Shown: positions 14,295 through 21,180 of the stretch, piece by piece | Layout of the letters: every line of letters begins with the position of its first letter | Position numbering within the stretch: the first letter of the stretch is position 1 | Source: Planctomycetota bacterium | GTDB lineage: Bacteria; Planctomycetota; Planctomycetia; Gemmatales; Gemmataceae | Reading direction: 5' to 3' | NCBI GenBank assembly: GCA_021781415.1 | Contig: JAJXWW010000176.1 | Location: 1 to 64,000 of the forward strand | Length of the DNA: 64,000 bases | Translations under genes and position numbers: made by a program | The notes under the pieces: model-generated | What the model was told of the DNA's origin: nothing | The model's input: only the letters and a program-made list of their open reading frames with translations | The model's database searches: none

Positions 14295-17200
14295 TCAGTT
14301 CGCGGAGTTCGGACGCAAAATATAGATGCAACCATCGAGAAGACCGAGCGCGAGATGGCGTCCGTCGGCCGCCAGAGCGGCGGCATGAATGGGCATGGGC
14401 ACGACGATGGCGCGATTGTTGTTTCCGCCGCCCATCTCTCGGACGATGACGCGACCGTCTTTGCCCGCCGTGTAAAGTTGTTTGCCGTCGGGCGAAAAAG
14501 CGATGAACGTAATCTCTGTTTCATGCCCCGGCCAACTGCCTCGCTCTCGCCCTTTAGCGGCGTCGAACAGCCGCGTTCGTCCGTCTTTGCCTGCCACGGC
14601 TAAAATCTTGCCGTCGGGGCTGAACCTTAAGACCGAGGCGCAACCGTCGGGTGACTTCAACGTGAGATGGTCCGCGACGTTCTCGATGTGCCAAAGATGA
14701 ACGATGCCGCTGGTACTCGACGCGGCGAAGCGTCGTCCATCGGGGCTGACTGCCAGCGCATGAATTGTTTCGCCTTCGGGAACGCCCACGACTCGTTTCA
14801 CTTCGTCCGTTTCCACGTCCCGAAACCGAATGAGTCCTCCCAATTCGCTGGCAATCAGCATTTTGCCGTTGGGTGTGTAGGCGGCGTGTCGCATCCCGTC
14901 TGGAGTCGAGCGTACTTCCTTGCCTGTATCAATGTCCCAGAAAGTGCGTCGTTCGCCGTCGTTGCCGGTCACCAGGATTCGTCCTTGGGGATCGAGCGCC
15001 CCCGATGCGAATCCGAGAGGCACGGACAGAGCGGCGCGCTCCCGTGCCGGCGGTTCTTTCATATCCCACAAACGCACGGTGCCATCGCGGCTCATCGAGA
15101 TCAGCGTGCGATCGTCCGGCGTAAACATCAGCCCTGTAACGATCTGTCCGTGTCCGGGAGCGATAAAGCGTTGGCGCGGCGGCATGTCGCCGACGTTCCA
15201 GAGGTGAATCGTGCCCCCTGTGCCCGACGTCGCCAACGTGCGGCCGTCCGGCGAAAAGGAAACGCTCCACGTCATCTCGTTGTGATCCGGTACGGATGCG
15301 AGTTGCTTCAATTGTCGTTCCGATATGTCCCATATGCGCCAGTGCGCGCTCCAAAAACCAGATGCCAGGCGCTTGCCGTCTGGAGAGAAGGCGACCTCGT
15401 TGGACGCCTCGCCGAGCCAGGAGCCGCCCGTCAATTCTTTCGGCTGTTTCTCGGTCATGTCCCACAAACGCACCGTATAGTCGTGCTGTCCCGAAGATGC
15501 CAACAGTTTTCCATCCGGGCTGAATGCCACGGAGACGACCCAGTAGGCGTGGTTGGTGAGGACGGCGCGCTCGCGGGGTTGTTCTTGGGAGAGATCCCAA
15601 ATGCGGATCGTCTTATCGATACTACAAGTCGCCAGGGTTTTGCTGTCGGGCGAGAAAGCGGGCTTGTTTTGACAATCCGTGTGCCCCTTGAGTACGGCTC
15701 GTTCCTTCGGTTGTCCGGAGATGTCCCAGAGACGCACCGTGGGAGGCTGCGAGTCACAGGTGAGTGCCAATAATCTTCCGTCCGGAGAAAGGACTCCCCA
15801 TCCAAGACGTCCCGGAAAATCCTTTAGAACAACTTTCCGGATCGGCTTCTCTCCGCTCACGTCCCATCCAATCGCGCTGGCCAATCCGCAGGTGACGAGC
15901 ATCTTACCGTCGCGGCGAAAATCGAAGCGCGTCAGCGGTTCGTCTGCTTTCAAGACGGCCTTCACACTCAAATCCTCTGGGCTGAGCAAGCGGACTATGC
16001 CCTCGGCGGCATTACAGGCCAGCAATCGCCCATCGGAACTCCACTGAACGAGCGTGGTATGGGAATGCCCAACCCAGCTGCGGTGATCGCCTAGAACGGC
16101 CAAGAGTTCCTTCGGTTGATTGTCCACTTTCTGAAATGGCGACAGCGGCGAGATATTCCAACGATCCAGCGGGGACGGCATCGTTGCCTGCACTTCCGCC
16201 GCCTCGATCGCCCAGCGCGTACCAGGATGCGCCAAGCGAAAACCGATTAGCTCGTCGCGAAACTTGGAGCGATCCACGCCTTCTGTCTCACCGTGCGTCC
16301 GCAGAGTCTTCCACTCTTTCTCGGCCGCGTCGGTGATGGAAACGCCTGGATTCGGCGTCTTCTCCGCGCGGGGACTATCTTTCGCTTTGCCTTTCCAGAC
16401 TATGGCCGATACGATGACAGCTAGGATGCCCGCTCCAACCGCCGCACCGATGTAAGTGCGCCTTTTTCGATCCGCTATTGAATTCTGCGTTTGCCTCTTC
16501 TCCTCCACTAGCACGGTATCGTCGCGCAGATCGGCGAAGGGAGTCCTTTCCAATCGTTCGACCGGCAAGCGCGGCAGCGGCGGTCGAATCGGCGCGGCCA
16601 CCTCTCCCGTGGACATCGCGGCGGCGCGAGCGCCTGGCTTTCGTGCCGCCGTCAGGGCGACGAGGAACTCCGCTGGAGTCGCATAACGGTCGGCGGGGCG
16701 CTTGGCCATCAATTGGTGGATTACAGCAACAATCGCTTCGGGCACATCGGGACGAAACTCCGTCGGGGGGCGAGGCAAATCGGTCTGGTGTCGAATGAGT
16801 TTTTCCATGAGAGTGCCGCCGGGGAACGGCACTCGCCCTGTCAGCAAGAAATAAAAGGTGCAACCCAGACTGTATAAATCGGCGCGAATGTCTGCCGAAT
16901 GCGAGTCCATCGCCTGTTCCGGCGCGATGTAGTCCGGCGTGCCCATGACGACGCCTTGTTCCGTTAGCGAGGTACTCGACAGTTCCCCGTTCGCGTCGGA
17001 ACGCAACCGGGCCAAACCCATGTCCAGCACCTTCACCGCATTGGTCTCCGTCACCAGCAAAAGGTTGTGCGGCTTGATGTCGCGGTGGACCATACCGCGT
17101 TCGTGGGCGTGTTGAATTCCCTCGGCCGCTTGACGAATGAAGTCGCACGCCGTCTCGACCGGCAGCGGTCCCTTTTGTTTCACATATTTGGCGAGATCGA

Positions 17201-17663
17201 CGCCTTCGATATACTCCATGGCGAAGAAATGCGTACCGTCGTCTTCGTCGGCGTCGAGAGCGCGGACGATATTGGGATGCGACAGCTGCGCCGCCGCTCG
17301 GATTTCACGTTGAAACCGGCGCACGGCATCGTTACTGGTGAGCCGTTCCTTGCGAATAACCTTCAAGGCGTCGATGCGTCCGAGCTTGCGATGTCGTGCC
17401 TTGAAGACCTGTCCCATACCGCCTTCGCCGATCCGTTCCAACAGAACGAACGAACCGAGGACCAATTGTCGGCCTCGTCCCTGAAACAATTGGTTGACCT
17501 GATAGGGCGTCAGCCAACCGCGCCGCACCATTTCGCCAGCCAATCCGCGCGCGTCGAAAGCGTTACCGCTTGTGAGCCGTTCGACTTCGGCCAACTGTTC
17601 CGGCTCCAACAGTGGGACTCGACGCAGTACTTCCAACAATTCGGAAACCGAGGAGATGGTCAT
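14295..17663 (-). CDS. Ser/Thr protein kinase with 14 WD40 repeats
   Basis: A 1122-residue membrane receptor kinase. Residues 1-70 form a short module ending GWLTPYQVNQLF. The kinase domain (about 72-335) has P-loop GEGGMGQVFKA, catalytic HRDIKPHN, DMG in place of DFG, and APE. A proline-rich linker leads to one transmembrane helix near 406-426, and the remainder carries 14 WD40 blades (FSPDGKxLA pattern), enough for two seven-bladed propellers, predicted outside the cytoplasm. The N-terminal module and kinase domain are paralogous to the kinase at 48638-49870. It converges with hrpB with a 20-bp gap. Ligand and substrates unknown. Confidence 0.93.
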   Translation of the reverse strand: MTISSVSELLEVLRRVPLLEPEQLAEVERLTSGNAFDARGLAGEMVRRGWLTPYQVNQLFQGRGRQLVLGSFVLLERIGEGGMGQVFKARHRKLGRIDALKVIRKERLTSNDAVRRFQREIRAAAQLSHPNIVRALDADEDDGTHFFAMEYIEGVDLAKYVKQKGPLPVETACDFIRQAAEGIQHAHERGMVHRDIKPHNLLLVTETNAVKVLDMGLARLRSDANGELSSTSLTEQGVVMGTPDYIAPEQAMDSHSADIRADLYSLGCTFYFLLTGRVPFPGGTLMEKLIRHQTDLPRPPTEFRPDVPEAIVAVIHQLMAKRPADRYATPAEFLVALTAARKPGARAAAMSTGEVAAPIRPPLPRLPVERLERTPFADLRDDTVLVEEKRQTQNSIADRKRRTYIGAAVGAGILAVIVSAIVWKGKAKDSPRAEKTPNPGVSITDAAEKEWKTLRTHGETEGVDRSKFRDELIGFRLAHPGTRWAIEAAEVQATMPSPLDRWNISPLSPFQKVDNQPKELLAVLGDHRSWVGHSHTTLVQWSSDGRLLACNAAEGIVRLLSPEDLSVKAVLKADEPLTRFDFRRDGKMLVTCGLASAIGWDVSGEKPIRKVVLKDFPGRLGWGVLSPDGRLLALTCDSQPPTVRLWDISGQPKERAVLKGHTDCQNKPAFSPDSKTLATCSIDKTIRIWDLSQEQPRERAVLTNHAYWVVSVAFSPDGKLLASSGQHDYTVRLWDMTEKQPKELTGGSWLGEASNEVAFSPDGKRLASGFWSAHWRIWDISERQLKQLASVPDHNEMTWSVSFSPDGRTLATSGTGGTIHLWNVGDMPPRQRFIAPGHGQIVTGLMFTPDDRTLISMSRDGTVRLWDMKEPPARERAALSVPLGFASGALDPQGRILVTGNDGERRTFWDIDTGKEVRSTPDGMRHAAYTPNGKMLIASELGGLIRFRDVETDEVKRVVGVPEGETIHALAVSPDGRRFAASSTSGIVHLWHIENVADHLTLKSPDGCASVLRFSPDGKILAVAGKDGRTRLFDAAKGRERGSWPGHETEITFIAFSPDGKQLYTAGKDGRVIVREMGGGNNNRAIVVPMPIHAAALAADGRHLALGLLDGCIYILRPNSAN

Positions 17664-18939: not shown

Positions 18940-18972
18940 CCGTGTCGGAACCCAAGATGCCCTGGAGGATTG

Positions 18973-19869
18973 ATGAGCGACCCGCGACCGTTGCATCGAC
19001 TGTTTGGTTTGTCTTGGATGGACTTTTTCCGTGGCACCGCCATAACCGTGGAGACGGAGATCGATCTGTCGTTGAAGCAGCAGTTTCTCGATTTGGTCAT
19101 CATCCGCAAAGGTATGGAGCCGATCCTCCGGCTTCTTCCCGACGGTTTCGACGATTTGGCGTCTCACAATTTGTTGAGTTTCAAGTCGCACCAAGAGGCG
19201 TTGGACGAGTGGACGTTGTGCGAGTTCGTGGGTCATTTTGTGAATTATCGCAAGCAGTATAGTCCGTCGATGCAGAATCTTCTGCCTCGTGACGCCTTTC
19301 GTTTGTTTGCGGTGTGCGTTCGTTTTCCACGCGATTTGGCGCGTTCGGTGGCGTTGACGAGAGTTCGTCCGGGCGTTTACGAGGTTCGGGTGTTGACGTT
19401 GACGATCCGTGTGATTGTGGTGAGCGAGTTGCCTTTGACGGAAGGCAATGCGATGTTGCATTTGTTTGCGGCGAGCGAGGAGCGTGTTCGTTTTGGCCGC
19501 GAGCATTATCGTCCGCATTCTGCGGAGAGCAGTACGTTGTTGTATCAGTTGTTGAAGACGTATAGCGAGGATCCGACCATGGCCGACAAGCTGCAAGAGT
19601 TTGTGCGTCAGAGTATCGATGAGTTTCTGGCCAGCTTGCCCCCGCAGGAGCGACTCAAAGGGTTGCCCGTTGAGGAACGCCTGAAGGGTCTAGCCGCAGA
19701 GGAGCGTCTCAAAGGGTTGCCCGCCGAGGAACGGCTGAAGGACGTGCCTGCGCAGGAGCGATTGAAGGGTTTGTCTGCCGAGGAAGTGGTGAAGGGGCTT
19801 CCGCCGGAGACGCTGGAAGCGTTGATTCGCCGCCTCAAGGCCAACGGCTCGTCGCCGCAATCGGCCTGA
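18973..19869 (+). CDS. Rpn-like putative nuclease with nonapeptide repeat tail
   Basis: A 298-residue protein. Residues 1-210 resemble the Rpn/PD-(D/E)XK-like proteins abundant in Gemmataceae and cyanobacteria (ETEIDLSLKQQFLDLVII, then ALDEWTLCEFVGHFVNYRKQ). The tail holds about seven nonapeptide units of the type LPAEERLKG (DNA about 19630-19815), then a short helix. GGAGG lies 4 nt before ATG 18973. Codon use differs from neighbours: the core is rich in T-ending codons such as GTT, CGT and TTG, suggesting a mobile or separately evolving family. Catalytic residues cannot be assigned with certainty. Confidence 0.65.
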   Translation: MSDPRPLHRLFGLSWMDFFRGTAITVETEIDLSLKQQFLDLVIIRKGMEPILRLLPDGFDDLASHNLLSFKSHQEALDEWTLCEFVGHFVNYRKQYSPSMQNLLPRDAFRLFAVCVRFPRDLARSVALTRVRPGVYEVRVLTLTIRVIVVSELPLTEGNAMLHLFAASEERVRFGREHYRPHSAESSTLLYQLLKTYSEDPTMADKLQEFVRQSIDEFLASLPPQERLKGLPVEERLKGLAAEERLKGLPAEERLKDVPAQERLKGLSAEEVVKGLPPETLEALIRRLKANGSSPQSA

Positions 19870-19983: not shown

Positions 19984-21180
19984 CTAATCCATCGCTTCCC
20001 CAACTTCGGCGAACTTCGCTCCCACTTCGTAGACGCCGGACATGAGTTGGCGACAGCGGACGATGCGCGCCGCGAGGCACAGGGTTTGGCTGTCGCCGCG
20101 CGGCAGGGTCAGCGTCGCGGATTCCAACGGTAACGGCCCGCTGCTTAGGAATGAGATGCCTCCCTTGGAAAGATCGCGTCCGAAGCCGACGTAGGTGGTC
20201 TGTCTGCCACCTACTTCGATGCCGATTTGCCCGGTGTATACCGCGCGCGGATGAAGGCGACGTTCGTCGCCGCAGGCGGTTTTCTCGGTTAGCTGCTCCA
20301 ACAGCGCTTCGAGATCCCTCTCGACATTGTCGTGCGCGGTTGACTCGACGCCGGGAGACGCAAGCTGGAATCGGCATCCCAGTTCGACCGCGTCATCTCC
20401 ACGCGCTTGGCAATGCCTTACTTCGGCGGGAACGTACAGCATTTCCCCCTGCCAGTCGATGCCTACGAGAACGCGCTCGCAGTCGGCCAAGCGGCGCTGC
20501 AAGATGGAGATGCCCCCGGACGAGAGGTTCTTCGCCATCGCTTCGTGAGCGGCATCCCAATCTACGGTGCCGTCCGCATCAATGGGCGCGACGCGGACGG
20601 GACGCTGAACGGACAAACGCGGAGCGGAGCGCTTCTCCGCCCCGGATTCCCGATTCAGTGTCAGAATGGCACGGCGTCCCCTGAGTTCGAAGGATAAATC
20701 GTCGAGAAAAGCGCGCATGAGCAGCAGGCCGCGCCCGCTGGCCAAAATTAAGCCCGGATCGTCCGAGCAAGCGCGGGATAAGACGCGCTCGACATCGAAC
20801 CCCTTGCCCTGATCGGTAAGAATCCAGCGGCAGCACTCGCCATCGTACTCGACGCGCACTTCGACGAGGCGCTCGGCATAGCGCGGGTCGGCGGCTCGCT
20901 CGGCCAATGCCGCCGTGAAGGCGTTGTCGCCTCGCTCTTTCAGATCGGAAGACAACTCCAGGTTGCCGTGAATCACCGAATTCGTCAGCGCTTCGTGCAG
21001 CACGAGCGTGAGTTTATTCGCGCGGACGGGGTGGCACGCCCCACAGAGAATGGCTTTTTGTTTGAGGTATTCAACCGTCGGCTCGATCCATTCCGGTAGA
21101 CTGGGGATGTGCAACGAGGTTTGTTCGGTCGCTACCGCCGTTGGAAGCGAGGGAGATTGCGGTGAGTGGGTCATCTGCAT
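19984..21180 (-). CDS. Anti-sigma-type ATPase fused to two PilZ domains
   Basis: About 398 residues. The N-terminal part is an RsbW/SpoIIAB-like HATPase_c_2 domain with N-box HEALTNSVIHGN, G1 DQGKGFD and G2 SGRGLLLM. Two PilZ domains follow, each with both c-di-GMP motifs: RSAPR with NLSSGGIS, then RLHPR with DLSKGGIS. The predicted role is a cytoplasmic switch in which c-di-GMP controls a kinase or partner-sequestering ATPase. No sigma factor, anti-sigma antagonist or GGDEF/EAL gene is adjacent. Start uncertain: GTG 21216 or ATG 21180/21174, none with a strong ribosome site. Confidence 0.85.
   Translation of the reverse strand: MQMTHSPQSPSLPTAVATEQTSLHIPSLPEWIEPTVEYLKQKAILCGACHPVRANKLTLVLHEALTNSVIHGNLELSSDLKERGDNAFTAALAERAADPRYAERLVEVRVEYDGECCRWILTDQGKGFDVERVLSRACSDDPGLILASGRGLLLMRAFLDDLSFELRGRRAILTLNRESGAEKRSAPRLSVQRPVRVAPIDADGTVDWDAAHEAMAKNLSSGGISILQRRLADCERVLVGIDWQGEMLYVPAEVRHCQARGDDAVELGCRFQLASPGVESTAHDNVERDLEALLEQLTEKTACGDERRLHPRAVYTGQIGIEVGGRQTTYVGFGRDLSKGGISFLSSGPLPLESATLTLPRGDSQTLCLAARIVRCRQLMSGVYEVGAKFAEVGEAMD

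Follow-up and report, generated by a model that had tools for sequence, protein, structure and literature searches.

A single reading frame encodes an RsbW-like ATPase joined to two PilZ domains

Within the 64-kb stretch of DNA analyzed here (the window), positions 19984 to 21180 of the minus strand hold an uninterrupted open frame that runs from an ATG at 21180 to a stop at 19984 and encodes 398 amino acids plus the stop. Open-frame reading and Pfam together identify it as a HATPase_c_2-PilZ-PilZ gene. In-frame alternative starts lie at 21174 (ATG) and 21216 (GTG). The first-pass annotation had given exactly these coordinates; the strand, which it had not given, is minus, and all features of the gene below are on that strand.

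The N-terminal part of the protein is an RsbW-like Bergerat/HATPase_c_2 domain (20647 to 21126; residues 19 to 178), recognized by Pfam PF13581 (residues 46 to 175, E 3.8e-12, 46.8 bits against a cut-off of 27.4) and by fold matches. A motif check found the three boxes of an RsbW-like ATPase to be intact, as the first-pass annotation had claimed. These are the N-box VLHEALTNSVIHGN (20962 to 21003; residues 60 to 73), with E63 and N67 in HEALTNSVIHGN; the G1-box TDQGKGFD (20794 to 20817; residues 122 to 129); and the G2-box ASGRGL (20725 to 20742; residues 147 to 152). Across a family alignment of 22 rows, made up of the window protein and 21 further loci (L067 to L087), E63 and N67, D123, G125 and G127, and the SGRG segment (S148 to G151) are invariant in 22/22 rows. 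The equivalog cut-offs for SpoIIAB and RsbW orthologs were missed (TIGR01925, 22.1 of 135 bits; NF003144, 11.4 of 145 bits). No REC domain was matched by Pfam in the window protein, and none of the 22 rows matches one at an E value of ≤0.001.

An AlphaFold2 model built from the 22-row alignment (mean pLDDT 76, pTM 0.45) gives good domains, while the arrangement of the domains is not fixed. In a comparison of this model with known structures (VIA-align), residues 7 to 180 have the SpoIIAB/RsbW/LvrC fold. The best match is LvrC (residues 7 to 178; Z 18.0, rmsd 3.4, 165 residues); the Z score is 15.8 for SpoIIAB and 15.2 for RsbW. The last HATPase strand of the model comprises residues 170 to 176.

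The Pfam PilZ model matches two stretches of the protein (whole-protein E 1.3e-17, 64.4 bits against a cut-off of 22.5). The first domain, PilZ1 (20353 to 20637; residues 182 to 276), is the best Pfam PilZ stretch and carries the RxxxR motif RSAPR (20617 to 20631; residues 184 to 188) and the (D/N)xSxxG motif NLSSGG (20512 to 20529; residues 218 to 223). The second, PilZ2 (20005 to 20268; residues 305 to 392; PF07238 genome-search match 19996 to 20265), carries RLHPR (20245 to 20259; residues 308 to 312) and DLSKGG (20158 to 20175; residues 336 to 341), so that the motif pair reported for both domains from the first reading is indeed present in each. In the model, residues 178 to 273 share the fold of PA0012:c-di-GMP (Z 11.0, rmsd 2.2, 81 residues) and residues 306 to 396 that of BcsA:c-di-GMP (Z 10.8, rmsd 2.9, 90 residues; both VIA-align). 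When the window protein was shuffled 20000 times, two ordered RxxxR/(D/N)xSxxG pairs with PilZ-like spacing arose 9 times.

Comparison with a same-genus copy (94% identical) yields an overall dN/dS of 0.108, indicative of purifying selection, with values of 0.079 for the HATPase domain, 0.069 for PilZ1, 0.099 for PilZ2, and 0.389 for the linker. The intact motifs, together with the low dN/dS in each domain, argue that the gene is real and that all three domains are maintained.

Next to the gene in the window are a co-oriented sulfatase gene upstream and, downstream, a convergent gene for which Pfam gave no match; neither offers a pointer to a partner. A sulfatase gene also lies upstream of the fusion at two other loci (L085 and L086), but at 31% identity; we treated this shared neighbor as chance, the carrier genomes presumably being rich in sulfatases. 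The convergent neighbor (18970 to 19869, plus strand) contains an in-frame tandem repeat at 19643 to 19785 with a period of 27/54 bases and EERLKGL-type units. Elsewhere in the window, the product of the frame at 14295 to 17663 (minus strand; 1122 amino acids) combines a serine/threonine protein kinase with a long WD40 propeller. Upstream of the fusion, L083 has a gene for a serine/threonine protein kinase and L084 the apparent end of one.

The fusion forms a single group among planctomycete HATPase proteins

In 84,980 species genomes, a scan turned up 294 relatives. The best 80 of these correspond to 79 distinct loci, 21 of which (L067 to L087) align into the PilZ region and carry the fusion; the scan used two short HATPase-domain peptide patterns, and fusions with a diverged HATPase domain or from other phyla could be missed. 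The records of 20 of the 21 loci are labeled Planctomycetota or a subgroup of it (Gemmataceae, Planctomycetaceae, Planctomyces, Phycisphaerae, and the like), and the remaining one, L083, is labeled just "bacterium" and groups with a planctomycete in the HATPase tree. All carriers with an informative label thus belong to Planctomycetota, where they fall into two classes. Viral contigs scanned with the fusion protein gave zero matches.

At closer range, some match to the protein was present in 30 of 41 related genomes, and a match over both halves of the protein in 7 (G000, which is the window's own genome, and G002, G006, G007, G014, G023, and G034). Among 392 genomes of the phylum, at least 2 have full-length matches (G000 and G388), a lower bound since four candidates were scored per genome.

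All 22 rows match both PilZ and HATPase_c_2 (E ≤ 0.001 for HATPase_c_2). The fetched loci contain 131 HATPase frames: 90 REC-HATPase, 22 HATPase-PilZ, and 19 that are neither by the models used. In a tree of the HATPase domain with 127 rows, including the window protein and 86 REC-HATPases, all 22 rows with PilZ group in a single clade (support 99/97), separate from the common REC-HATPase proteins; the clade appears in 98% of bootstrap trees from a bootstrap that was not fully settled. From this grouping, a single origin of the fusion, followed by vertical descent through two planctomycete classes, is the most likely history. Its derivation from a REC-HATPase via exchange of the input domain is plausible, the deep branches of the tree being weak.

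The C-terminal PilZ domain is the common element of the family

The number of PilZ domains varies within the family: 16 of the 22 rows have two, and 6 (L082 to L087) have the C-terminal one only. PilZ2 is present in 22/22 rows, each of which keeps both arginines of RxxxR and the (D/N)xSxxG motif, and this conservation marks the C-terminal site as the common element of the family. Of the 16 rows with a PilZ1 domain, 15 keep both of its motifs, the exception being strain Pan216, in which the second motif reads HLSKDL. Because PilZ1 is absent from 6/22 rows and damaged in 1, two-site cooperativity would be a feature of lineages and not of the core design. The first-pass annotation had pointed to two sites allowing cooperative binding; such cooperativity is possible in most of the family, judging from the motifs, but it cannot be a general principle of it.

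In the two-site forms, the PilZ1 RxxxR motif begins 8 residues past the last HATPase strand (176 to 184). Given this short distance, binding of c-di-GMP at PilZ1 could order the linker beside the ATP domain.

A SpoIIE-type phosphatase gene adjoins the fusion in Phycisphaeraceae-type loci

Four loci that group in the tree, L077 (strain syqfu) and L078 to L080 (labeled Phycisphaeraceae or Phycisphaerales), are here termed Phycisphaeraceae-type loci. In 3/3 of those that could be tested (L080 ends at the fusion gene), the next gene downstream is co-oriented and encodes a SpoIIE-type phosphatase, with gaps of 67 nt (L077), 113 nt (L078), and 121 nt (L079) and a downstream product of 396 amino acids. 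The L077 protein matches SpoIIE (PF07228, E 3.3e-29) over its C-terminal half; its N-terminal region has no Pfam match and looks like a degenerate receiver domain. The adjoining SpoIIE/RsbU-type phosphatase in all three loci points to a partner switch. Outside the Phycisphaeraceae-type loci, a phosphatase HMM had no hit anywhere in the window or at the remaining loci that were searched.

A relative of this phosphatase (G000 copy as query, E ≤ 1e-40) is encoded in 19 of the 41 related genomes and is thus more widely spread than the fusion. It occurs in 7/7 fusion carriers versus 12/34 noncarriers (Fisher P = 0.0022, relatedness ignored) and, within the window's own family, in 6/6 carriers versus 11/19 others (P = 0.07, relatedness again ignored). 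We regard linkage and co-occurrence as supportive of a shared pathway, though not as proof of one.

Preceding the fusion gene in 4/4 Phycisphaeraceae-type loci is a gene for a protein of 109 to 129 amino acids with two apparent membrane spans (L077, 5496 to 5858; L078, 5469 to 5858; L079, 5442 to 5825; L080, 3604 to 3933), a possible third operon member; the L077 protein has no Pfam match. No STAS gene is adjacent to the fusion at the loci. The one linked STAS gene lies in L068 (2943 to 3746), about 2.2 kb upstream of the fusion and separated from it by opposite-strand genes; its FHA-STAS product would link the reading of phospho-threonine to a STAS domain.

Carrier genomes encode candidate parts of a proposed c-di-GMP-linked partner switch

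The window's genome has 5 GGDEF matches (3 of them strong), 4 HD-GYP-type matches (PF13487), and no EAL match, along with 8 SpoIIE and 7 STAS matches. Free-standing STAS proteins that contain a YLSSAALG segment are encoded in G000, G002, G006, G007, G023, and G034; we take the serines of this segment to sit at the position of the SpoIIAA phospho-serine. The genome search also lists 9 PilZ matches in G000, with only the C-terminal domain listed at the fusion locus. A second tandem-PilZ protein of this genome (L177; G000:C23:41169-41798) has two over-cut-off matches and, by eye, no HATPase part. In G034, two PilZ matches (G034:C1:3256886-3257599) fall inside one 1206-amino-acid open frame.

A candidate c-di-GMP-controlled kinase and the alternatives

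Our leading reading, to which we give about an even chance from the domains, motifs, and gene neighborhoods, is that the fusion protein is a c-di-GMP-controlled serine/threonine kinase of the RsbW type acting in a partner-switching pathway. The substrate bound and phosphorylated by the HATPase dimer would be a free-standing STAS protein, and a SpoIIE phosphatase resembling RsbU would reverse this phosphorylation. Occupation of the PilZ module by c-di-GMP would order the linker and alter how readily the STAS protein reaches the ATP site. In this scheme, c-di-GMP may either activate or inhibit, and the pathway may end at a sigma factor or at some other protein. In the usual planctomycete relatives, this role would fall to a phosphorylatable REC domain; the fusion would therefore swap a two-component input for a second-messenger input. 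Extended to the family, the proposal is one of c-di-GMP-gated RsbW-type kinases in which the REC-to-PilZ exchange brings c-di-GMP directly into a STAS/SpoIIE switch, and this too we consider a roughly balanced proposition.

The first-pass annotation had left the choice between an anti-sigma and a serine-kinase switch. The adjoining phosphatase in the Phycisphaeraceae-type loci favors the kinase half of that description, and the literal anti-sigma half has fared less well. As a true anti-sigma factor, the HATPase dimer would sequester a sigma factor and be armed or disarmed by c-di-GMP on PilZ, a logic like that of RsiG built from unrelated domains. The closest folds, SpoIIAB, RsbW, and LvrC, are called anti-sigma factors, and the authors of the LvrC study propose a REC-regulated anti-sigma role for it (PMC13269768). 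However, the window protein scores far under both equivalog cut-offs; no sigma factor was seen among the neighboring proteins scanned, which are part of all neighbors; and a strict model of the SigB/F/G family (SigBFG) found none over its cut-off in the carriers G000, G034, and G388, where weaker matches are many, a cut-off passed by 1 of 14 control genomes. An exact sigma-70 consensus is absent from the window, which is uninformative. On balance, we consider direct sequestration of a sigma factor unlikely, if still worth keeping in view.

The phosphatase neighbor itself can be read in another way. RsbT is a HATPase relative, and the HATPase domain of the fusion might, like RsbT, bind and switch on the SpoIIE-type phosphatase encoded beside it, with c-di-GMP controlling the contact. 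RsbT activates RsbU (PMC12143880). But the adjacency is limited to one family, the N-terminal region of the phosphatase could be its own input, and the best fold matches are to the RsbW/SpoIIAB group (RsbT is missing from the match list, which excludes nothing), and we judge such a co-activator improbable. Hardly more probable is that the PilZ domains have lost c-di-GMP sensing and serve for structure or docking. Some PilZ domains are known as adaptors (PMC7288161), and the loss or damage of PilZ1 in seven rows would fit; against this stand the complete conservation of the PilZ2 motifs, the near-complete conservation of those of PilZ1, and a PilZ1 dN/dS that gives no sign of relaxed selection. 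An annotation break or an assembly join of separate genes, which the first-pass annotation had named as a way in which its reading could fail, has no point in its favor and is close to inconceivable, since independent assemblies, two of them records labeled as complete chromosomes (Pan216 and syqfu), carry the same fusion in a single open frame, as the window does.

If the kinase reading is true, the protein would be a concrete candidate for a c-di-GMP effector in planctomycete regulation and would offer a ready test of second-messenger control over a Bergerat kinase. The natural one-site and two-site forms could then be compared to see if a second site brings cooperativity or a threshold.

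Comparison with known systems

Partner switches are usually driven by stress-sensing phosphatases. c-di-GMP is already tied to sigma control via RsiG, and it lies on the output side of the SiaABC switch. In an RsbW-like kinase gated by PilZ, c-di-GMP and the partner switch would meet in one protein, with control running in the direction opposite to Sia. In Pseudomonas aeruginosa, the kinase SiaB and the PP2C phosphatase SiaA act on SiaC in a system tied to c-di-GMP (PMC7278518). SiaB is likewise a HATPase-fold kinase (Z 9.9 versus the window protein model), but no PilZ domain is described for it (PMC7278518), and the SiaA/SiaB/SiaC/SiaD switch controls c-di-GMP synthesis, whereas in the fusion c-di-GMP would control the switch kinase.

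In the actinobacterial RsiG-WhiG system, c-di-GMP acts directly on a sigma/anti-sigma switch, which also occurs in single- and twin-site forms (PMC8325347, available portion). RsiG is a coiled coil with its own motif, for which that portion describes no ATPase, PilZ, or kinase, in contrast to the ATPase-plus-PilZ build of the fusion. c-di-GMP also binds CckA, a HATPase-containing kinase (PMC7288161), but there it sits on the HATPase_c domain itself, and CckA is a histidine kinase, not of the RsbW type like the fusion. With SpoIIAB and RsbW of Bacillus, the fusion has in common the fold and the N, G1, and G2 boxes; it differs in a longer stretch between the N-box and the G1-box, in its additional PilZ domains, and in falling below the equivalog cut-offs.

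The first-pass annotation had known of no characterized protein with this domain order, and our literature search agrees: no paper on a PilZ-HATPase_c_2 protein was found, in a search that covered literature other than subscription journals and preprints and judged some candidates by title and the start of the abstract. The closest characterized proteins are LvrC, TciR, SiaB, and RsiG. Pfam holds 221 PilZ architectures, and HATPase_c_2 is not named among the partners in the available part of the review that counts them (PMC7288161); the fusion may well be listed among these architectures without having been studied.

LvrC of Leptospira (PDB 9qih) is the best match to the HATPase fold, with 21% identity over the 165 aligned residues, and its chain, labeled SenB in that entry, is also the best PDB sequence match to the family profile (E 3e-11). 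Like the fusion, LvrC joins a sensory domain to an RsbW-like output domain, but LvrC takes its input through a REC domain at the N terminus, which LvrB phosphorylates (PMC13269768), while input to the fusion would come through C-terminal PilZ. The same holds for TciR of Vogesella indigofera and other REC-RsbW proteins, which combine an RsbW-like output with a sensory domain and have REC at the N terminus without PilZ, where the fusion has PilZ without REC. According to the TciR study, the kinase residues of TciR are conserved, and no protein of REC-RsbW architecture had, to its authors' knowledge, been functionally characterized before (PMC12826045). Since this output domain is already paired with REC in LvrC and TciR, the fusion varies a known design and does not represent a new kind.
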